A stretch of DNA of 64,000 nucleotides, taken from contig NC_015577.1 of NCBI RefSeq assembly GCF_000214355.1, forward strand, positions 1,940,453-2,004,452, written 5' to 3'. Shown piece by piece: positions 16,624-57,641 of the stretch. A model generated the notes under the pieces. The model did not search any database. It was given only the letters and a program-made list of their open reading frames with translations, and was not told the DNA's origin. This DNA is from Leadbettera azotonutricia ZAS-9 (GTDB lineage: Bacteria; Spirochaetota; Spirochaetia; Treponematales; Breznakiellaceae). Made by a program: the position numbers and the translations under genes. The stretch's first letter is position 1. Every line of letters begins with the position of its first letter.

Positions 16624-17696
16624 TCAGATGCAGGGTTATGGCCGCGTTGTTTTTATTCGCATTTTTTCTTCCCCGCCTCGGGGCTGTCGAATACACCGAC
16701 GGCTCTGTCAAGCTGGTACTCTGGGAAGACAACGGCCGTTTTTCCCTTTATGCAAAAAATGCGCATTCCCAGTACGTTCCGTTTTTTACGGATCAGGATC
16801 CCAGGACCAGTTTCCTTGCGGTGATGGTCAATGACCATTCCTACAAACTGGGAGATACTTCAAGCTTTAAAATAAGGCTGGGGGGGGATTCCCGTAAACC
16901 ATCACTGGTTTTTGAATCTTCCTTTCTTTTGGTAACCGAGGAATTTTCTTTTATTCAAACCTCGGATGCCGGAGAGGCAAACGGCGTCTCCATAACCATC
17001 ACCATAGAAAACAAGGTCAACCAGCAGTCCATGGTGGGGCTGCGCTATCTTTTGGATACATCTTTGGGCGAGTACCGTTCGGGGCCGCCCTTTGCTATTA
17101 ATGCCAAAGCCATAAATTCTGAAACCCTTATTGAAAAAGGGGCAAGCACAGGCTATTGGGTCTCGGAGAACGACACCCTTTCCCTTACAGGCAGCCTGTC
17201 CGGCGACAGCATCCACTTTGCCAATTGGAAGCGCCTCAACGATGTGCCCTGGAAAACCCCCTATGCCCAGGGCCGGAATTTCAATTCCCCTCCATACTCA
17301 GTGGGGGATTCCGCAGTCTGCTACTACTTTGAGCCCAAGGCCATAAGCCGGGGCGAAACCCGCACGGTTTCTTTCACCCTTGCCGCAGGAAGATCCGGGG
17401 GCTTCCCGGTTCAAACAGCCGAAGTCCCGCCTCCGGCCCCTGAAACCTCTGAAACCCCCGAAACCCCTGCGGCAGTTCCTACAGCAATCCCCGAGCCGGT
17501 GGTTATTGTGCCTGCCCCTGTGCTAAGCCCCGAAGATCAGAAGGATAGGGATCTGGCCTTGATACGGCAGCTCATAGGGCGGATAGATGGGTACATGATT
17601 TCGGGGGCTGCCACCGAGGAAGAGCTTTCCGCCATGGAGTACACCCTTGGCCAGCTCATGGCAAAGTACGGGATGGAGCCCCATACCCGGCCTTAA
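16620..17696 (+). CDS. Exported protein of unknown function
   Basis: The 358-residue protein has a signal peptide (MIRCRVMAALFLFAFFLPRLGA). A beta-rich domain follows to about residue 255, containing ITIENKVNQQSMVGLRYLLDT and segments rich in Ser, Thr and aromatic residues. Next is a Pro/Glu/Thr linker and a short helical end. I recognise no catalytic motif. Its ATG overlaps the stop of the preceding TPR gene and the following gene begins one base after its stop, so the three form one envelope-related operon with rpe. Confidence 0.5.
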   Translation: MIRCRVMAALFLFAFFLPRLGAVEYTDGSVKLVLWEDNGRFSLYAKNAHSQYVPFFTDQDPRTSFLAVMVNDHSYKLGDTSSFKIRLGGDSRKPSLVFESSFLLVTEEFSFIQTSDAGEANGVSITITIENKVNQQSMVGLRYLLDTSLGEYRSGPPFAINAKAINSETLIEKGASTGYWVSENDTLSLTGSLSGDSIHFANWKRLNDVPWKTPYAQGRNFNSPPYSVGDSAVCYYFEPKAISRGETRTVSFTLAAGRSGGFPVQTAEVPPPAPETSETPETPAAVPTAIPEPVVIVPAPVLSPEDQKDRDLALIRQLIGRIDGYMISGAATEEELSAMEYTLGQLMAKYGMEPHTRP

Positions 17697-19462: not shown

Positions 19463-20302
19463 TTATGCCTTACCATGATCTTTCCCTGTTTGCAATAAAT
19501 GTGTTTTCCAGAATTCAATACCCTGGATGATGAACAAAGCCGCAGCCCCGATAATGATTATAGCGGAACTGACAGGTAAATCAAAAACGAAAGAAACTGC
19601 AAAGCCCGAAAGGTTCATCCCGGTTCCGAAGAGGGCGCCAAATATGATAAGGGCCCTGAAACTTTTGCCGATGCGCCGGGCCGCCAGAGCGGGGAGTATG
19701 GTAACCGCGTCCACCAAAAGCGCTCCGGTGATCCTCATGGCCACAGCTATGCCTAAACACACCGAAAGCATGATGCCGCCGTACACCAGTTTCGCCGGAA
19801 CGCCTACAGACCATGCCAGTTCTCGATCATAGAGTACTATGTGTATTTCCTTGTAGGCAGCGCAGAGAAACACAAGAATAACAACAGCGGTAATAACAGT
19901 AAGCCTGGTGTCCTCATCGGTGAGGGTAAGGATATTCCCCCAGAAGAGGTTGAAGGCTTCGATGGCGTGGACATTGCCTTTGTAGAAAATAATAAAGGCC
20001 ACCCCCATGCAGACCGTCATGATGAGCCCCAGCGATCCTCCTGCGGATACCCGGCCCCGCCAACTGACAATGGCAATGGCGATGCCGGCCAGTATGCTAG
20101 TGATCATTGCCGCAGTTGTTGTGCTAAAACCCAGGATCAGGGCGATGGCAGCCCCCAGCAAGGCCGCGTGCATTACGGCGAAGCGGGCGGGGATAAGTTC
20201 CAGGTTGAGGATAAAAATACCCAGCACGGGAAAGGCAATTCCCGTGGCGCAGAGGGCGATGAGGCCCCGTGAGAAAAAGGGCATGGCAAGGAGTTCACCC
20301 AT
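19463..20302 (-). CDS. Metal-type ABC transporter permease (ABC-3 family)
   Basis: The 279-residue protein has about eight hydrophobic spans and the ABC-3 family pattern seen in ZnuB, TroC and MntB permeases, including VGVPAKLVYGG and RITGALLVDAVTILPALAARRI. I start it at ATG 20302, which overlaps the 3' end of the ATPase gene by 8 bases; the longer open frame runs inside the ATPase gene and is not coding. It forms the inner-membrane channel of an importer with the two genes upstream. The metal cannot be read from the permease. Confidence 0.85.
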   Translation of the reverse strand: MGELLAMPFFSRGLIALCATGIAFPVLGIFILNLELIPARFAVMHAALLGAAIALILGFSTTTAAMITSILAGIAIAIVSWRGRVSAGGSLGLIMTVCMGVAFIIFYKGNVHAIEAFNLFWGNILTLTDEDTRLTVITAVVILVFLCAAYKEIHIVLYDRELAWSVGVPAKLVYGGIMLSVCLGIAVAMRITGALLVDAVTILPALAARRIGKSFRALIIFGALFGTGMNLSGFAVSFVFDLPVSSAIIIIGAAALFIIQGIEFWKTHLLQTGKDHGKA

Positions 20303-21026
20303 TGATGGCTTCCTGCCCGGTGAAAATTTTTTCTGCCCTGCCGTCAGTGAAGCGGTACATATCCCTGCATCCTGCAATTGTATCCTCGTCGTGGGAAACA
20401 ATGAGGACAGTAATATGTTTGTATTCCTGCCTCTCACGGATGATACGCAGCAAATCCGTGCGCCCTTCGGCGTCCAGATTGGAGCTGGGTTCATCCAGCA
20501 TGAAGAGTTCCGGCTCCATGGCCAGGGATCGGGCAATGGCAACCCGCTGGGTCTGTCCGCCCGAAAGTTCCTGAACCCGGCGCTTCGCCAAATCCGCCAC
20601 TCCGGTAGCTTCCATGGCGGCATCCACCAAATCCTTGTCCAGCCGGGACAGGGGCCGGCAAAATCCCGCCATGCCGTAGCGCCCCATGGAGACTGCTTCC
20701 CGAACCGTGGTCGGCAGACTACCTCCGGCGGTATTCTGGGGCACATAGCCTATGCGCAGCAGGGTCCGCCTGAAAAAGAGCGATCCCGGCCTGGTCCCCA
20801 TGACGGACATAGTGCCCTCCCTGGGCCTGAGCATGCCAAGGCAGAGTTTGAGAAAGCTTGATTTGCCTGCGCCATTGGGGCCGCAGAACGCAGTAACACT
20901 GTTTTTTTCAATCCTGAGGGAAACATCCCTGAGCACGGTCAGCCTTCCGTATCCGGCAGTGATATTCCGGGCTTCGATAACCGGTTCCGTCTTTAAATCC
21001 CGGAAACCGGGGATGGGGCCAATCAT
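20295..21026 (-). CDS. Metal-type ABC transporter ATPase
   Basis: The 243-residue protein carries every ABC ATPase motif: Walker A GPNGAGKSS, Q-loop VPQNTAG, signature LSGGQTQR, Walker B LFMLDEP and switch histidine SHD. The family is that of ZnuC/TroB-type importers, judging by its partners. The ATG lies directly after the stop of the binding-protein gene and the end overlaps the permease gene, so the three should be made together. Confidence 0.9.
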   Translation of the reverse strand: MIGPIPGFRDLKTEPVIEARNITAGYGRLTVLRDVSLRIEKNSVTAFCGPNGAGKSSFLKLCLGMLRPREGTMSVMGTRPGSLFFRRTLLRIGYVPQNTAGGSLPTTVREAVSMGRYGMAGFCRPLSRLDKDLVDAAMEATGVADLAKRRVQELSGGQTQRVAIARSLAMEPELFMLDEPSSNLDAEGRTDLLRIIRERQEYKHITVLIVSHDEDTIAGCRDMYRFTDGRAEKIFTGQEAING

Positions 21027-21797
21027 TTACTTTGCCTTAATAAGGACATCCGCATTGTAGCGGAACACATCTTCTATGCTCAGGGTTCCATCCTTGCCGG
21101 GGAAGTTCAGCAATTCCGCGTAGGACGCCCGCGCTGCTTCCGCTATGGGCTGTCCCGACGGCCCGTGGTAATTGTCGATTACCAGACCGGGCCTGAGTTG
21201 CACCATTTGCAGGATCACCGCAGGGGAGGGTTCCGCAGGGCCGTATTCCCCGATGATTTCAAAGCCCAGCCATGCGGCAAAGGGGGTCTGCATACGCTGG
21301 ACCACCGCCCGCCGGTCAGGATAGGCGGCGATGATTTTTTCCCGCAGATCTTCCGCAAAGGGCTCGAAGTTTTTCCACCACTCCGCAAAACGCTCTTCCG
21401 TGCCCAGGATACGGGCTATTTTTTCAGCCTCCGCCCGGAGATCCTCCGGCGTGTTGGAGGTATTAACTGTTACTATCCGCACCCCCGCGCTGCCCGCAGT
21501 CTCGGCAAGTTTTTTGGCGAACTGTTCCCACCCGGCATAGATGATAATATCAGCCTTGCTTGCCGCCGCCAGATCCGAAGGCTTCAACTCGTACTCCGGA
21601 GGATGCCGCAGATCCAATGGCGCCAGGATACGCACACTTTCTGCGCCCCCGGCTTTGGCAATAGCCGCAACCCAGGATGTAGAAGCAAGCACCGCCTTGC
21701 CTCCGGCTGATGCTCCGACAGAGCTGTCATTTTTGCCCCCCGCAAAAAGAAGGAAAGAAACCGCGAAGAGAAAAACAACAAGGTAAAATCGTTTCAT
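21027..21797 (-). CDS. Periplasmic substrate-binding protein of the ZnuA/TroA family, atypical metal site
   Basis: The 256-residue protein has a signal peptide (MKRFYLVVFLFAVSFLLFAGG) without a lipobox cysteine, so it is probably soluble in the periplasm. It follows the cluster A-1 fold: an N-lobe with LRHPPEYELKPSDL (the usual first metal His region), a long linking helix (about 115-140) and a C-lobe. The third His of TroA/ZnuA, normally in a His-x-x-Phe segment before the C-lobe strand, appears as Gln/Thr in RMQTPFAAWLGF, and the His-rich loop of ZnuA is absent. The ligand may therefore be a different metal or a chelate (inference). Confidence 0.75.
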   Translation of the reverse strand: MKRFYLVVFLFAVSFLLFAGGKNDSSVGASAGGKAVLASTSWVAAIAKAGGAESVRILAPLDLRHPPEYELKPSDLAAASKADIIIYAGWEQFAKKLAETAGSAGVRIVTVNTSNTPEDLRAEAEKIARILGTEERFAEWWKNFEPFAEDLREKIIAAYPDRRAVVQRMQTPFAAWLGFEIIGEYGPAEPSPAVILQMVQLRPGLVIDNYHGPSGQPIAEAARASYAELLNFPGKDGTLSIEDVFRYNADVLIKAK

Positions 21798-21804
21798 ATT
21801 TATC

Positions 21805-22215
21805 CTATTCCATCAGCCGTATATATTCCGAGCCGTGCCCATAATTCTTCCAATTTGAAAACGCCATGGTTTCGTAGTCATCAATGACCGCAAATTCACC
21901 GTACACATCGATTCTGCCCATTTTTTTATTTTTATCATAAATGTAGGATACCAGATATATTCCTTCATTCTGATCATGATACATTGCCTCATCCGGCGTA
22001 TCAAAAGAGAGGGTTCTCCTGCCCCATTGGCTGTCCCAAAGCCATTTGGTGCCTGTCAGAGGATGATCCGGCGTGTGGACATATTCCAGCGGAACATCCC
22101 GGGGATCGGTCTGCTGCTGGCATCCCGGCAGGACTGCCAGAAAAAGGGCGGCCATAAGAACCGACAATATACTCCGGGCCGGCAGCAAACTTTTTCCTTT
22201 CAAATTATTCTTCAT
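21805..22215 (-). CDS. Small lipoprotein with one GTxW/YGH module
   Basis: I start it at ATG 22215, giving 136 residues; an ATG at 22230 would add five residues. It has a lipoprotein signal ending LAVLPGC (Cys 32). The mature part is one copy of a module that runs from LTGTKWLWD to MAFSNWKNYGHGSEYIRL. The same module occurs four times in the gene upstream and twice in the gene at 24012. The start overlaps the upstream stop by 11 bases and its stop lies 7 bases before the binding-protein gene, linking it to the ABC importer. Confidence 0.7.
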   Translation of the reverse strand: MKNNLKGKSLLPARSILSVLMAALFLAVLPGCQQQTDPRDVPLEYVHTPDHPLTGTKWLWDSQWGRRTLSFDTPDEAMYHDQNEGIYLVSYIYDKNKKMGRIDVYGEFAVIDDYETMAFSNWKNYGHGSEYIRLME

Positions 22216-23575
22216 CCTGAAACAATCCATGAGGCAAGTTTACAAAATCTGCACGATGCCCATAACCCTTGTAATTGGAAAAATAAAGATTCAGGGGTAC
22301 CACAGTGGTATCCTCAATGGCAAAACCTGCTTTGATTTCAAAATTTCCCAAAGCCCCTGCACTACTTGAGGTAGGCGATACCCTTTCGGCTGTCTGGATT
22401 TGGCCGCTATTTGCAGTACCGTTAAAAGTATATCCATAGATGTAAGGATAGGGATAATACCCGGTAAAGCTATACAGTATGGCCTGATCTTCCCTCACAA
22501 ATTCGAGGACCAAACTGGGCCAATACCATGCAGTTCCGAGTATTGTATTAGCCGCATCGGCATCCGGTGCATCGGAGAAAACAACTTCAAAAGAGGAATT
22601 CCGGTAGTTGCTGAAAGTTAAAGTGCCATTATCCGGGGACAGGGTGAAGTCTCCTACAGCGTTTATCGCATCCCCAGTTTCAATAACCCCATCAGCCTCT
22701 ATCGAGGCACTTATTCCTGTGTGCTGTCTCCCCGACCTGTCGCCGTCTATAGAACCAGTTCCTGTGCTTGCATCGTAGGTATACGCATAGTCCTTTCCAT
22801 GGATGCTTGCCGTGGCGGCATCTTTGAATTGAAGTTCAGCGTTGTGAAAATACCAGTTTGTTTCTGTTACAGAGGCTGGAAAAATTTCCAGAGGAGCACT
22901 GTCCTTTATTCTTTTTACAGAAACCGTAGCATGACTATAAAAGGCGGTGAACGTAATCACCGTACCATCATCGCTGACCGTAAAAGCGCCCAAACCGTTT
23001 GATACGCTCCCTGTTTTGGCTGTTCCGTCATAGGTATAAGTGTAGTTTTGCTGGGTGTTATCGTGGGTAAAAGTAACCCTTACCGCTCCCCCAGCATTGA
23101 ATTCCAAAGAAAAGGGAAGGCCATTGGGATTCAAACCAGCCCACCAACTGCCGGTTAAATAGGGCAGATCTGCTGTTCCACTGGCGGTATACGTTTTTTG
23201 AAGCCGTGCAGCCGGGACAGATGCATGACCGTAGAAGCTCGCAAAAGTCAAGTTACCATCATCGTTAACGATGAATGCGCCTATGCCTCCACCAATCGTC
23301 CCGGTTTTAGCGAAAGCGTCAAAAGTATAATCCCTTGCCTGCTGACCGTTATCTGCGGCAAAAGTGGTTTTCACCTTTCCTTCTACCTGAAATGTGAACA
23401 ATACCGGAGCGCCATTGGGGGCGTTACCGGCCCAGGATGTACCCACTATCAAAATACTATCCGCCGCTTGCTCTTCAGGCGTATCGGTTGAACACCCAAA
23501 AGTAACCATAATGGAAAAAACCGCAAGAAGGGCTATTGCTACGGTCGATCCGCTTAACCAAAATCGCTTTTTCAT
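22205..23575 (-). CDS. Lipoprotein with four GTxW/YGH modules
   Basis: ATG 23575 follows GGAGG at a good distance and gives 456 residues; the longer frame starting at 23626 lacks a ribosome binding site and is not used. The signal ends MVTFGC (Cys 28). The mature protein is four tandem modules of 85-105 residues (about 41-130, 140-230, 240-345 and 350-456). Each starts near GTSWAG, GSWWAG, ETNWYF or GTAWYW, has a YTYDGTAKTGSV-like strand pair and ends FTAFYSHATVSVKRI or LYFSNYKGYGHRADF. The pattern suggests repeated small beta domains. It is the first gene of the left arm, behind the leader at 23576-23713. Confidence 0.75.
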   Translation of the reverse strand: MKKRFWLSGSTVAIALLAVFSIMVTFGCSTDTPEEQAADSILIVGTSWAGNAPNGAPVLFTFQVEGKVKTTFAADNGQQARDYTFDAFAKTGTIGGGIGAFIVNDDGNLTFASFYGHASVPAARLQKTYTASGTADLPYLTGSWWAGLNPNGLPFSLEFNAGGAVRVTFTHDNTQQNYTYTYDGTAKTGSVSNGLGAFTVSDDGTVITFTAFYSHATVSVKRIKDSAPLEIFPASVTETNWYFHNAELQFKDAATASIHGKDYAYTYDASTGTGSIDGDRSGRQHTGISASIEADGVIETGDAINAVGDFTLSPDNGTLTFSNYRNSSFEVVFSDAPDADAANTILGTAWYWPSLVLEFVREDQAILYSFTGYYPYPYIYGYTFNGTANSGQIQTAERVSPTSSSAGALGNFEIKAGFAIEDTTVVPLNLYFSNYKGYGHRADFVNLPHGLFQDEE

Positions 23576-23713
23576 AAAAACCTCCAAATTGTTTAAAAAA
23601 ACTTTACAAGCTCCTTCAGAAGCCAAAAAAAAGCCCGAGACCCCTTTCTGTATTGCACAGAAAAGAAGTATCGGGCTTCAGCCGTTTAAAACGGAATCCA
23701 TGTTCCGCTAATA
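23576..23713 (-). ncRNA. Structured leader with attenuator, left arm (copy 1)
   Basis: Upstream of the four-module lipoprotein gene the minus strand can form a hairpin GCGGAA-CATGGA-TTCCGT (23708-23691), then CCGTT/AACGG, which shares bases with the first hairpin. A long terminator-like hairpin and a T-run (23678-23625) follow. The order and the conserved parts are the same as in the right-arm leader at 23907-24011. I find no match to a riboswitch class I know. Its 5' end depends on which of two candidate promoters is used. Confidence 0.65.
23625..23678 (-). terminator. Intrinsic terminator inside the left-arm leader
   Basis: AAGCCCGA pairs with TCGGGCTT, with an inner stem closed by CTG/CAG around the loop TGCAATA, about 20 base pairs in all. 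An eight-base T-run follows. It lies between the candidate promoters and the ribosome binding site of the lipoprotein gene, so it would stop transcription before the operon unless prevented. Confidence 0.75.
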
Positions 23714-23716
23714 GTC

Positions 23717-23745
23717 AATTTATGGCGGCAGCAATTCAAGATCAA
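23717..23745 (-). promoter_or_regulatory. Candidate promoter of the left arm (proximal)
   Basis: TTGATC (23745-23740) and TAAATT (23722-23717) are 17 bases apart. Transcription from here would begin just before the first leader hairpin, as in the right arm. A second candidate lies further upstream (TTGACA 23825-23820, TATTAC 23802-23797, spacer 17) and would give a longer leader. The sequence does not decide between them. Confidence 0.4.
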
Positions 23746-23872
23746 AAACCAGGGACTTCATGCCCCCGGCAAAATCAACTGCCTTCGTTCAATATGGTAA
23801 TACTACAAACATATTTTTTTGTCAAGCGATGTCAATGAATTTTTTAAAACATTCGCATTAATAAATTTCCGC

Positions 23873-23901
23873 TTGACAAAAAATTCTTTTGATGGTAAAA
23901 A
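23873..23901 (+). promoter_or_regulatory. Candidate promoter of the right arm
   Basis: A perfect TTGACA (23873-23878) is followed after 17 bases by TAAAAA (23896-23901). Transcription would start near 23908, a few bases before the conserved hairpin of the leader. Confidence 0.55.
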
Positions 23902-23906
23902 ACTAA

Positions 23907-24011
23907 GCATCGCGGAGCATGGATTCCGCCCATAGAAGGCATGAAGCCCGACTTTTTCCTCTGGACTATACAGAGGGAAGTGTCGGGCTTTTTTTTTAAA
24001 GGAAAAATGAT
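23907..24011 (+). ncRNA. Structured leader with attenuator, right arm (copy 2)
   Basis: The leader begins with the hairpin GCGGAG-CATGGA-TTCCGC (23912-23929). A short GCC/GGC hairpin (about 23928-23940) follows, then TGAAGCCCGA and a long terminator hairpin. Against copy 1 the loop CATGGA is identical, while the stem differs at two pairs in a way that keeps pairing (A-T against G-T, and G-T against G-C). The ribosome binding site AAAGGAAAA and the ATG at 24012 follow the T-run directly. Confidence 0.65.
23944..23997 (+). terminator. Intrinsic terminator inside the right-arm leader
   Basis: AAGCCCGAC (23944-23952) pairs with GTCGGGCTT (23982-23990), extended inward by a near-perfect stem closed by CCTCTG/CAGAGG around the loop GACTATA. 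A run of T follows to 23997. The hairpin stands between promoter and start codon, as expected for attenuation. Confidence 0.8.
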
Positions 24012-24758
24012 ATGGCAAAAAAAATTGTTTTATTAAAGGCCCTTTGCGGTGCTTTTGTCATGGCTATTCTTTCAGGCTGTATTGCGGACCCGGTTGATCC
24101 GGAGCCACAGCTTGCGGCCCTGGACGGAACCGTCTGGGCAGGCCCCCAGGGCGACACCGGTTGGGTCACCCTGGCCTTTAGGGCTGCTGCCGGAGGGGAC
24201 CAGAAAAAGGACGCAGCAATTCAATTTGCCTCCGAGACAAATCCCGGAAACACGGCCCACACGGAAGAATACACCTATGATGAAACTGCCAGAGAAGGTT
24301 TCATGCCCAAACCGATCCGCAGTTCTCCGTCTGTTGATTATGAGGCGCCCGGCGCCTTTGCCCTAGGGGCCGGCGATAAAACCCTTCGTTTTACGGATTT
24401 CCAGGGGAGCGGTTCTCCTCTTACCCTGAAGAAGCTCCTTCCCGATGCCGGGAATACCTTTGCCTTGATAGATCCGCTGCCCGGAGACTTGGAAAATACC
24501 ATCTGGGTAAGCGAGGGCTTCAGAACAGACGACTGGGTTACCCTCAGTTTCAGGGGCGCAAACGGCAGCATGATCGTGCAGGTAAGTCATGTTGCGGATA
24601 GTACCCAATATTCACGGGTTTATACCTATAGTGGCAATACCAAAACAGGAGGCATTGTTTCTGTCGGCAGCTTTGAGATTCTTGAAAACGGTGTAAAACT
24701 AACGATGGTAAATTATTACGGCCACGGAGTTCCGGTTGATTTTAAACGGGTACGCTAA
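24012..24758 (+). CDS. Lipoprotein with two GTxW/YGH modules
   Basis: The 248-residue protein has a lipoprotein signal ending AILSGC (Cys 23). Two modules follow: about 35-145 (LDGTVWAGPQGDTGWVTLAF to LRFTDFQGSGSPLTLKKL) and about 155-248 (LENTIWVSEGFRTDDWVTLSF to LTMVNYYGHGVPVDFKRV). The modules are recognisably the same as those in the two lipoproteins of the left arm. It is the first gene of the right arm. The next gene starts inside its last 23 bases. Confidence 0.72.
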   Translation: MAKKIVLLKALCGAFVMAILSGCIADPVDPEPQLAALDGTVWAGPQGDTGWVTLAFRAAAGGDQKKDAAIQFASETNPGNTAHTEEYTYDETAREGFMPKPIRSSPSVDYEAPGAFALGAGDKTLRFTDFQGSGSPLTLKKLLPDAGNTFALIDPLPGDLENTIWVSEGFRTDDWVTLSFRGANGSMIVQVSHVADSTQYSRVYTYSGNTKTGGIVSVGSFEILENGVKLTMVNYYGHGVPVDFKRVR

Positions 24759-25776
24759 GTATTTTTCTGCAGCAGGTATATTCCTGTTTCTCCTCCTGTT
24801 CCTGTGCTGCAATAATCCCGCCGGGGATGATGGCGACAGAGGCATAAAAACCCCGGTCAAGTACCGTGAGATTATCGTAGTTGTCCCCCAGGGAAAAACT
24901 GTGCTTGTCAACGGAAGTGGCAGCGCCGGTGTCTTTGTCGAATACCGTTCGATCGTCCTTTCGCCCTACGGCATAGCGCGGTACGAGACCACCTGGGAAC
25001 TCTGGGACGAAGTATGCCGATGGGCTCGGTCTCACGGCTACAGTATTGCCAACCCCGGCAGGGAAGGCCACGGGAGTACCGGCACCGGTAACCCAAATAA
25101 GGGCTGGACCGAAGCCCAGCGGAAAGCCCGGCCCGCAACAAGCATGACCTGGCGGGATGCCATTGTGTGGTGCAACGCATACAGCGAAATGAGCGGCCTT
25201 GAACCAGTGTATTACGAAGGCGAAGACGGTCCCGTACTCAGGCAATCCCTCAATATTATGAGCCATCCGCCTGCGACAACAGCGGATCTGCCCTTTGCAA
25301 AGGCGGGGGCAGAAGGCTACAGGCTGCCCGCCGAAGCTGAATGGGAATTTGCCGCCAGGGGCGGGGATCAAAATACTGCGGGCTGGAATTATGAATATCC
25401 CGGGAGCGGCACCATCGACAGCGTGGCATGGTACCTCGATAATTCCTCCGCCTTGGGAAGCGCTCATGCCGATTACGGCGCTCATCCGGCAGGGAGCAAA
25501 GGGGACGGAACCGGCGCAAACCAGCTGAGTCTGTATGACATGGGCGGCAATGTTTCCGAATATTGCCGGGATTGGTACGGCGATACTGATGCTATTGCTG
25601 CGGATACAGCCCCCGAAGGCCCTGACATGGGAGCATTTGCCCACAGGGTCATGCGGGGCGGCGGCTGGAACAGTTACGCTGCCGATTGCATGGTCACAAG
25701 CCGGAACTATACCCGGCCCTGGATAGGGAGCCCCTATGTAGGGTTCCGTGTTGCAAGATCCCTGGGCGCTGAATAA
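24736..25776 (+). CDS. Lipoprotein with a formylglycine-generating-enzyme-type (SUMF1) domain
   Basis: I accept the TTG at 24736, seven bases after GGAG within the previous gene. It gives 346 residues with a lipoprotein signal ending LLFLCC (Cys 24 or 25). Residues about 75-345 match the FGE-sulfatase fold: IARYETTWELWDEVCRWA, WRDAIVWCNAYSEMSGL, GYRLPAEAEWEFAARGG, LYDMGGNVSEYCRDWYG, RVMRGGGWN and YVGFRVAR. True formylglycine-generating enzymes use two cysteines near RGGSW. Here the first position is Asn (GGGWN) and only the second may remain (AADC), so oxidase activity is doubtful and a binding role on the membrane is more likely. Confidence 0.8.
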   Translation: MILNGYAKYFSAAGIFLFLLLFLCCNNPAGDDGDRGIKTPVKYREIIVVVPQGKTVLVNGSGSAGVFVEYRSIVLSPYGIARYETTWELWDEVCRWARSHGYSIANPGREGHGSTGTGNPNKGWTEAQRKARPATSMTWRDAIVWCNAYSEMSGLEPVYYEGEDGPVLRQSLNIMSHPPATTADLPFAKAGAEGYRLPAEAEWEFAARGGDQNTAGWNYEYPGSGTIDSVAWYLDNSSALGSAHADYGAHPAGSKGDGTGANQLSLYDMGGNVSEYCRDWYGDTDAIAADTAPEGPDMGAFAHRVMRGGGWNSYAADCMVTSRNYTRPWIGSPYVGFRVARSLGAE

Positions 25777-25790
25777 AGGGGAGAACAGAG

Positions 25791-27821
25791 GTGAAAAAAT
25801 CCGCATCCTTTTTCATGGCTTTAGTTTTAAGCATGGGCTTTTTTGCATTTCCTGTTCAGGCGCAGTCAAACGATGAAGAGCTCGATGGCTGGGAAGATGA
25901 TTTCGATCTTGTCATGTCCAGCGAGGAGGGGCTTACCATTTCCGCAGAAGGGCAGGGGCAGGAGCAAAACCCCGCAGCCCCGGTGCAGACTTTTTATGGC
26001 CCCCATAACGAAGTAAGGGAAGAACAGATACACGACCAAGGTTCTCTTGATTTGCTGGATACATTGCGGGATGTTCCAGGTGTAGTTATCAGCAAGCAGA
26101 ATGTGATAGGAACCACCACCGGCGCCAGTCTCTATATCCGGGGGCGGGGCTATGATCATCCTTCCCTCGGCATAACCACGTCTTTTGACGGAGTTCCCCG
26201 GTACGGCCTGATTTACGGTCAATCCATGGCCGACAGCTTTCCCGTGTTTGCTGCGGATAGCATAGAGCTGTACAAATCGCCCCAGCCCTCAAGTTTCGCC
26301 GCAGGGTATGGCCTGGTAAATGTTACCCCGAAATATATGGCGGAACAAGGCTGGGAAGCCCGGACAGGGTTTTCCTACGGCAGCTATCAAACCATAGGCG
26401 AAAACGCATCCTTCGGTATACGGAAAGGGCGCTTCGATGTTCTGGCAGCCCAAAGCTGGGTTTCGAGCGATGGCCATGTGGTTCATTCGCAGGCGCATCA
26501 GCAGAGCTACTACCTTAATGCCGGTCTATGGATTAACGCATATTGGAACCTGCGGCTTCTGGGCAATTTTGTGGACGCGAAAACAGAAAAGCCGCCGCAA
26601 ATCGGGCAGAGCAAAGCTGATATACTTCCTTTTTTTACAACAGATACTGTTTTTTCCACTGCTACTCTTAACAATGAATTTGACAATGCGGAAGGCTTTA
26701 TCAAACTGTATTACACATACACGAATTTCAGGATCTTTGACGAAGATGCGCGTCCCCCAAGGGGATGGTCAAAACAGCTGCTCCATGCTTTTGGCGGCAG
26801 GGCAAAGGAAACATGGCATTTGTGGGAAGGCGGTGAAATTATAACCGGCATGGATCTTGATTTTTCTCAAACCGCAAACGAGGCTCACAGGCCCGGTACA
26901 GTCGATTACTACCATTTTCCCGGCATGGTGTTGTTCACCCCTTATGCGGCAATAAGCCATTTCTTTATAGTGAACAAATTCCGCATAATCCCCTCGGCAG
27001 GGCTTCGGGGTTATATTCATAGCGTATGGGCCAATGCGATTGCGCCCCAGGCAGGGCTGGAATTGGGATACGGAAATACAAACCTCAATCTCAGCTATGC
27101 CTTTGGGCTACTCTACCCATCGCCGGGGAATATTCAAAACATGGTTTCAGGCGGAGACTTTGATGTTGCGGATCTTAAACAGTCAAAGCCTGAAACTGTC
27201 CATCACTACGAAGCCTCCCTCCGCCATGACTGGTCCAATGCATCCCTTGGCGCAACCTGGTTCTTTGACGACGGCCATGACCGGATAATTCCAAACCCAA
27301 CAGGCGCCCCGGGCAATGTAAACGAAACTTCCTACTTCCGCATACAGGGCCTGGAATTCAACGGCAGTTTTACTATTGAAAGGGACCTGCTGTTTTTGGA
27401 AAAATTCAACGTCTTCGCCGGAGGCGCCTGGATGTATAAAATTGAAGCAAAGGGCGAAGACGGCAAGGCGGTCAGTCGTATGCCCTATACGCCAGTATTC
27501 AGCATGTTGGCCGGCTTTAAATGGCAGTTTTTAAAACGTTTCCATCTCAGCGGCGATTACCAATTTATAAAAGAACTGTACGGAGACGGCGGGACAAAAT
27601 ATGCCGTATTCACGGATCTGTCTGATGCGGTTAAACTGGATGACCAGCATCTGGTGAACCTGCGTCTTTCCTGTGAGTTTGCCTATGCAAAATGGCGGGT
27701 AGATAAAGCCGAAGTTTTTGCCGGGGTAAACAATATACTCAATCATCAATACCAATACTATGCTGGATATATAATGCCGGGAATAACCTATTCCATGGGC
27801 GTGGATTTTAAATTTAAATAA
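25791..27821 (+). CDS. TonB-dependent outer-membrane receptor
   Basis: A GTG after GGGGAG starts a 676-residue protein with a signal peptide (MKKSASFFMALVLSMGFFAF...AQA) and an acidic N-terminal stretch. A possible TonB box is GLTISAEG. The plug domain lies at about 75-180 (LLDTLRDVPGVVISK, SLYIRGRGYDHPSLG, IELYKSPQPSSFAAGYG). A beta-barrel runs to the end, with alternating strands and the common KAEVFAGVNNILNHQYQYY. It would carry a scarce ligand across the outer membrane using TonB energy. Its place in the same locus as a metal-type ABC importer points to a metal or metal chelate (inference). The last residues FKFK end the final strand. Confidence 0.88.
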   Translation: MKKSASFFMALVLSMGFFAFPVQAQSNDEELDGWEDDFDLVMSSEEGLTISAEGQGQEQNPAAPVQTFYGPHNEVREEQIHDQGSLDLLDTLRDVPGVVISKQNVIGTTTGASLYIRGRGYDHPSLGITTSFDGVPRYGLIYGQSMADSFPVFAADSIELYKSPQPSSFAAGYGLVNVTPKYMAEQGWEARTGFSYGSYQTIGENASFGIRKGRFDVLAAQSWVSSDGHVVHSQAHQQSYYLNAGLWINAYWNLRLLGNFVDAKTEKPPQIGQSKADILPFFTTDTVFSTATLNNEFDNAEGFIKLYYTYTNFRIFDEDARPPRGWSKQLLHAFGGRAKETWHLWEGGEIITGMDLDFSQTANEAHRPGTVDYYHFPGMVLFTPYAAISHFFIVNKFRIIPSAGLRGYIHSVWANAIAPQAGLELGYGNTNLNLSYAFGLLYPSPGNIQNMVSGGDFDVADLKQSKPETVHHYEASLRHDWSNASLGATWFFDDGHDRIIPNPTGAPGNVNETSYFRIQGLEFNGSFTIERDLLFLEKFNVFAGGAWMYKIEAKGEDGKAVSRMPYTPVFSMLAGFKWQFLKRFHLSGDYQFIKELYGDGGTKYAVFTDLSDAVKLDDQHLVNLRLSCEFAYAKWRVDKAEVFAGVNNILNHQYQYYAGYIMPGITYSMGVDFKFK

Positions 27822-57263: not shown

Positions 57264-57274
57264 TAGCAAAAAAG
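57264..57274 (-). terminator. T-run closing rnpB
   Basis: The last helix of RNase P RNA (GCGATG pairing with CATCGC) is followed directly by six T on the minus strand, so the P1 helix can double as an intrinsic terminator. Confidence 0.5.
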
Positions 57275-57630
57275 CGATGAACCATAAGCCGGGTTCTGTA
57301 TGATTGGCTGTCATCTATCTTGGGGGATCCTCGCGGATTCCCTCTTTGCAGCCTACCCGCAGTCTTGAAGGGGCCCTCCAACTGCTGCTTGGCTTTGCTC
57401 CTGATGAGGTTTGCAGTGCCCCAGGCATTGCTGCCTGGGCGGTGGGCTCTTGCCCCGCCTTTTCACCCTTGCGGCCCAATGGGTTCGCGGTATATTTTCT
57501 GCTGCGCTCTCTGTCGCTTCGCCCTTTGGAGCGAAGCGCCCGGGCGTTACCCGGCATCATGCCCTGCGGAGCCCGGACTTTCCTCACCCGGAAGCAAAAG
57601 CTTCGCGCGGCGCGGCAGCCGGTCCATCGC
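57274..57630 (-). ncRNA. rnpB: RNase P RNA, bacterial type A
   Basis: The minus strand carries the near-universal segment GAGGAAAGTCCGGGCTCC near its 5' end and ACAGAACCCGGCTTATGG near its 3' end, which together build the catalytic P4 core. The ends pair as P1 (GCGATGGACC with GGTTCATCGC), fixing a length of about 357 bases. It removes 5' leaders from pre-tRNA. Its 5' end is 11 bases after the stop of the zinc-ribbon gene, so it may be processed from that transcript. Confidence 0.95.
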
Positions 57631-57641
57631 TAAAAAAACAC

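Follow-up and report, generated by a model that had tools for sequence, protein, structure and literature searches.

In the guanidine-II (mini-ykkC) riboswitch, which lies upstream of guanidine genes, hairpins in tandem combine short, conserved ACGR tetraloops with stems that vary. In ANTAR targets, each of the two hairpins must have a hexaloop with A1 and G4 (PMC3369931), and the known range of TwoAYGGAY covers the human gut, gamma-Proteobacteria and Clostridiales (PMC2864571). Here we describe an uncatalogued RNA element of repeated small hairpins that precedes nickel/cobalt/zinc uptake genes of termite-gut spirochaetes and seems capable of either halting or permitting transcription. A literature search found no description of such leaders, most subscription papers being outside its coverage. 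The element occurs in two divergent leaders within a 64,000-nucleotide stretch of the Leadbettera azotonutricia ZAS-9 genome (hereafter the window); this genome is a single contig of 3,855,671 bp, and genome-wide counts rest on model searches.

Both window leaders share the same anatomy of promoter, hairpin H1, hairpin H2 and an intrinsic terminator that shares the H2 3' arm (Table 1). An earlier note had placed twin leaders here, and their location, H1 stems and CATGGA loops were confirmed on both strands. The long terminator that it described, opened by TGAAGCCCGA after H1 and ending in a T-run, was present in both leaders, but its position directly before the ribosome binding site did not hold on the left, where the leader is longer, carries an extra hairpin (H0) and has its terminator end ~40 nt before that site. 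A variable short hairpin, CCGTTT-AAACGG, may act as a competitor in the left copy as proposed, but it is GGC-(A)TGAA-GCC that is conserved as the second hairpin. The key parts, namely this H2 together with the (A)UGAA hairpins upstream, were absent from the earlier description. The divergent promoters form an inverted repeat (23801-23828 versus 23870-23897), the right one mirroring the left with 79% complementarity across 28 nt; promoter and leader thus appear to have been duplicated as one module. A consensus promoter scan did not list the right-leader promoter and, at the left leader, listed an overlapping site with a different -35 at 23835.

Table 1. Features of the divergent locus, in window coordinates.
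Feature	Position	Strand	Remarks
Left operon, ABC-3 permease	19463-20296	-	
Left operon, ABC ATPase	20295-21026	-	
Left operon, ZnuA-like SBP	21027-21797	-	weak match, 31.6 bits vs cut-off 29
Left operon, second lipoprotein	21805-22218	-	
Left operon gene 1, lipoprotein	22205..23575	-	ATG at 23575
Left intrinsic terminator	23625..23680	-	T-run 23632-23625
Left H2, putative antiterminator	23674..23683	-	GGC-TGAA-GCC; P = 0.94 in nascent RNA
Left H1	23691..23708	-	GCGGAA-CATGGA-TTCCGT
Left H0, extra hairpin	23748..23770	-	GCCGGGGGC-ATGAA-GTCCCTGGT
Left-leader promoter, predicted	23797..23825	-	TTGACA, 17 nt, TATTAC; expected start ~23790; read by eye and from inverted repeat I1
Right-leader promoter, predicted	23873..23901	+	TTGACA, 17 nt, TAAAAA; expected start ~23907; read by eye
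Right H1	23912..23929	+	GCGGAG-CATGGA-TTCCGC
Right H2, putative antiterminator	23938..23948	+	GGC-ATGAA-GCC; P = 0.89 in nascent RNA
Right intrinsic terminator	23943..23997	+	GCC common to 5' arm and H2; T-run 23989-23997
Right operon gene 1, lipoprotein	24012..24758	+	ATG at 24012
Right operon, FGE-sulfatase-domain gene	24736-25776	+	
Right operon, TonB receptor	25791-27821	+	

From H1 to the terminator, both leaders fold far more stably than their shuffles (z = -5.85 and -5.29; 0/200 shuffles as stable). The stability of H1 plus H2 alone is unremarkable (z -0.56 and -1.14), and the case for this pair therefore rests on comparative evidence. A descriptor combining H1, H2 and an overlapping terminator matched only these two leaders in the window and nothing in 3.84 Mb of random sequence. 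Elsewhere in the window lies a class A RNase P RNA (57269-57631, minus strand, 254 bits).

A blastn search with the right leader found copies in another genus at 82% identity (E = 5e-16). Covariance model R1, built from 7 copies, picked up more genera, and R2, built from 19, gave 29 matches in 16/200 family genomes and 7/57 genera. About 25 copies in 15 genomes and 7/57 genera, all Breznakiellaceae (the family of the window), were accepted as good, with L058 (ambiguous), L072 (degenerate) and L067 and L065 (truncated) excluded. No convincing copy was found outside the family in 394 genomes sampled evenly from the order and 393 from the phylum, searched with Infernal strict filters under which weak copies may be missed. 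Covariance-model matches outside the family were rejected on reading, L069 and L070 as tRNA-Gly plus terminator and L071 and L112 as generic terminators. The ambiguous weak match L058 (G057:C228:1832-1930) reads GGCGGT-ATGGAT-GCCGCC right after TATAAT and continues into a terminator, with H2 not clear. Orphaned or truncated copies also occur (L016 5818-5913, L017 6701). As the earlier note had anticipated, further copies lie upstream of metal importers and TonB receptors, with covariation. Neither outcome that it had set against its reading, a lack of further covarying copies or a simple recent duplication, was encountered: the window copies are 73% identical to each other, while identity between the right one and copies L015a and L016m1 of another genus is 82-83%. 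Because identity is lower within the window than across genera, the window pair are old paralogues.

Across copies, H1 usually has a stem of 5-9 bp (longer in L057, 3 pairs only in L055 and L064), with loops CATGGA, CAGGGA, ATGAA, ACGAA, AGGAA, AGGAC, TGGAA or GGGAA. H2 follows after a gap of usually 4-8 nt as a stem of 3-4 bp with loop ATGAA or TGAA (AAAGA in L055), and its 3' arm is the terminator 5' arm in every copy read. The H1 covariation reported earlier between the window copies amounts to pairing that is kept through one-sided G-C/G-U and A-U/G-U changes only, and true two-sided H1 changes were seen only after relatives were added. H2 pairing survives sequence change in the copies read (GGC/GCC, GGGC/GCCT, AGGC/GCCT, GGGT/GCCC, GAGT/GCTC, GGGT/ACCC). 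In the fitted alignment 95.3% of cells were paired, and two-sided change occurred in 9 pairs versus 4.7 +/- 1.4 in shuffles (reached by 2/500) and 2-4 in slid versions, counts from an alignment that leans towards its structure and retains the relatedness among sequences. Judged from these aligned sequences, the helices covary across family copies. Conservation of H2 is partly shared, as the terminator also constrains its 3' arm. In L057, an H2 pair is A-T where the terminator at the same place has merely T-G, which favours selection on H2 itself.

When the prefix ending at the H2 3' arm was folded, H1 and H2 formed in most copies. Among the copies listed (L104 not included), P(H2) was at least 0.59 in all except L019, L052 and L064, with poor predictions (0.01-0.03) for L019 and L064. 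The completed transcript folds as H1 plus terminator. With H2 forming first in nascent RNA and the terminator winning when complete, H2 is predicted to lose unless held, which is the logic of an antiterminator. A terminator and an upstream helix sharing one arm, as in an intrinsic-terminator attenuator with a mutually exclusive antiterminator, are conserved in relatives.

The region upstream of H1 lies outside the models beyond 12 nt and provided an independent test for further hairpins, scored as at least 4 Watson-Crick pairs enclosing exactly ATGAA or TGAA. Such H0-type hairpins occurred in 17/25 copies, versus a mean of 0.28 and a maximum of 3 in 300 sets of dinucleotide shuffles, and the remaining 19 loop permutations gave 0-1 upstream hairpins each. 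Most H0 stems differ from copy to copy. Among 5-bp hairpins in L015-L019, no other pentaloop was as frequent as ATGAA (13, against 8 for the next). The left-window H0 was the top match of a single-hairpin model (R3) in its own genome, a match that belongs to the R3 training set. In a relative (G143, 4.06 Mb), R3 gave 6 matches at E up to 5, of which 4 lay within 120 nt in the leader of one divergent CbiM gene; some of these hairpins were in the training set, and the evidence is their clustering rather than their scores. Other arrays precede a ZnuA-like gene (L016 ~8.0 kb), FecCD (L018 ~7.9 kb), a His-rich protein (L018 ~6.5 kb) and a methyltransferase operon (L015 ~19.4 kb). The array pattern CATGAAG...CATGAAG picked up the cbiM leader and a single divergent leader, but most of its matches were background or tandem repeats in coding sequence. 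By eye, no loop-to-leader pseudoknot via UUCA was consistent.

At least 11 copies lie upstream of metal-acquisition genes, including NikA/CntA, Nik permeases, DUF4198-CbiMQO, CbiM, ZnuABC-like genes and TonB receptors. L092, L094 and L095 precede NikA (497 bits versus a cut-off of 393, with strong CntA similarity), Nik/Opp permeases and DUF364 heavy-metal chelation genes; L017 and L018 precede DUF4198 and CbiM with adjoining CbiQ/O-like genes. CbiM also stands behind L098 and L015, TonB plugs behind L093 and L097, and methyltransferases behind L015, L018, L091 and L094. By gene content the commonest theme is nickel/cobalt uptake, which does not single out one metal. The ZnuA-like match in the window's own operon is too weak to identify its metal.

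Several other features accompany the leaders. Behind leaders in several genera lie lipoproteins of one family, which share a recurring 'GTxW..W' at their start (e.g. LTGTKWLWDSQWG, LDGTVWAGPQGDTGWVTLAF) and include all three window lipoproteins of Table 1 and those of L097 and L104; the five members tested had no match in Pfam. Short ORFs immediately behind L100-L104 and L053 (genomes G068, G035, G062) contain poly-C/poly-G tracts at least ~10-15 bases long; these tracts may serve as phase-variable switches or may be artefacts of assembly. In the attenuator-to-gene interval, past the first terminator, L016p, L017a, L017b and likewise L018b carry a second conserved hairpin element, GCGCGTACAGAAGCCCCCGCT...CAAACC..TATCGAATGTTATTCGA..GGTTTGG.GCGGG.GCTTCTT, for which Rfam had no match. 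L015 holds a cobalamin riboswitch (16938-17129; 46.7 bits, gathering 31.5) ~130 nt upstream of an attenuator copy, the two standing in tandem ahead of methyltransferase genes.

We propose that the leaders are probably a lineage-specific transcription attenuator controlling metal-acquisition operons, in which a factor, likely a protein, holds H2 and turns uptake ON. As RNA polymerase leaves the promoter, H1 would fold and then H2, with upstream H0 also forming in many copies, each presenting a loop of (A)UGAA or related NGRA sequence. Without the factor, the longer terminator would displace the 3-4 bp H2 and transcription would stop before the gene. The factor, most likely an RNA-binding protein, would contact two or three neighbouring hairpins simultaneously through their loops and keep H2 closed; the terminator base then could not form, polymerase would read through and the uptake operon would be expressed, presumably under metal limitation. 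Whereas the anatomy and its conservation, the pairing kept through change, the H2/terminator overlap, the early folding of H1 and H2, the repeated loop and the gene context are computed results, we infer regulated readthrough with a protein factor, binding as the ON state and a metal-status signal, nickel/cobalt most often by gene content. An H2 stem of only 3-4 bp would need a stabilizer. A factor gripping several loops at once is the best fit to mutual exclusion of H2 and terminator, loops repeated on unrelated stems and variable spacing. All genomes checked also encode Fur-family proteins, and the main control could therefore be conventional repression.

A ligand-binding riboswitch, which we consider unlikely but the strongest of the competing explanations, would bring two to three (A)UGAA/NGRA hairpins together around its ligand (metal ion, metal chelate or cofactor), in a packing likened to that of the two hairpins of guanidine-II, so that the ligand directly stabilizes or prevents H2. 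Short tandem hairpins with invariant loops are in keeping with such an aptamer, as is the single functional theme (Ni/Co/Zn uptake, metallophore-like ABC genes and methyltransferases) in 7 genera, and arrays before genes without an obvious terminator (L018 ~7.9 kb) would suit an interchangeable one. However, H0 stems range from 4 to 14 bp, H0-H1 spacing varies widely (loop 46-79 nt before H1) and H0 is missing in the shorter copies, all of them unusual traits in a compact aptamer, and few nucleotides besides the loops are invariant. A metal ligand switching uptake ON would also be backwards. The identical loops, freely varying stems and variable spacing fit a protein-bound antiterminator at least as well as the metal or ligand sensing that the earlier note had raised, and we favour the protein account, taken as a whole, over a direct riboswitch.

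If the terminators were constitutive, only damping expression and travelling with a duplicated promoter-leader module in which H0, H1 and H2 are non-regulatory, this would account for the promoter similarity between window leaders and for those copies that are clearly relics. Such a history is improbable: drift would not keep H1/H2 pairing and loops through 7 genera or build differing stems around the same upstream loop, and the copies are old rather than recently duplicated. Control by CsrA, binding GGA in the H1 loop (CATGGA, CAGGGA, AGGAA) and altering termination or RNA stability, could draw on a csrA gene present in 5/5 genomes checked and on GGA within H1 loops in most genera. We rate it lower still, as the H1 GGA is lost in a whole subgroup with ATGAA and ACGAA loops (L016, L017, L018, L019), the H0 and H2 loops read are without GGA, and the invariant part is the UGAA loops; with loop GGA not conserved, the leaders were not accepted as CsrA-binding. 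Leader-peptide attenuation was rejected as well: in some copies the H1-loop ATG starts a short reading frame, but other copies (ACGAA, AGGAA) have lost this ATG, and by eye no well-spaced ribosome binding site precedes it.

The protein-held attenuator, if real, would place spirochaete metal uptake under a dedicated RNA switch and not just metalloregulators such as Fur. It is quite possible, although we advance it tentatively, that the (A)UGAA/NGRA hairpin arrays are a new class of metal-status RNA switch directing a Ni/Co/Zn regulon of Breznakiellaceae by antitermination, read by a new antiterminator protein family or a riboswitch ligand. With its minimal unit defined (H1-H2-terminator), natural variants at hand and target operons listed, the element allows a direct search for the factor through pull-down or ligand tests on the RNA. 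It may also reveal new members of metal acquisition among the lipoproteins, methyltransferases and poly-C ORFs behind leaders.

In agreement with the earlier note, the conserved attenuator falls outside known classes: no leader matched Rfam 15 at the gathering cut-off (NiCo, cobalamin, guanidine, Mn, TPP and others), and none had a sensible match at E < 10. NiCo and cobalamin riboswitches likewise control Ni/Co/B12 uptake genes in anaerobes, but neither model matches the leaders, which would add a second possible metal-responsive RNA logic besides NiCo and manganese riboswitches. With TwoAYGGAY, defined by AYGGAY hairpins, the leaders share ATGGAT, contained in H1 CATGGA-T; identity was not accepted, since the H2 and H0 loops are UGAA and the RF01731 covariance model matched no leader at E up to 10. 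Guanidine-II resembles the leaders in its hairpins, which stand in tandem and keep short loops while their stems vary, but the leaders have (A)UGAA loops, sit before metal genes and are unmatched in Rfam, and this identity was not accepted either. A search for the ANTAR domain (PF03861) gave no match in three genomes, nor any in control genomes. Leader H2 loops of 4-5 nt (UGAA, AUGAA), H1 hexaloops that begin with C (CATGGA, CAGGGA) and a common third upstream hairpin set the leaders apart from ANTAR targets, and as they break the A1/G4 hexaloop rule they were not accepted as such. Nonetheless, like the targets of EutV, NasR and AmiR, they have two small tandem hairpins of which the second overlaps an intrinsic terminator, a loop sequence as the conserved feature and a distribution over several unlinked operons; if our account is correct, tandem-hairpin antitermination extends beyond ANTAR targets.
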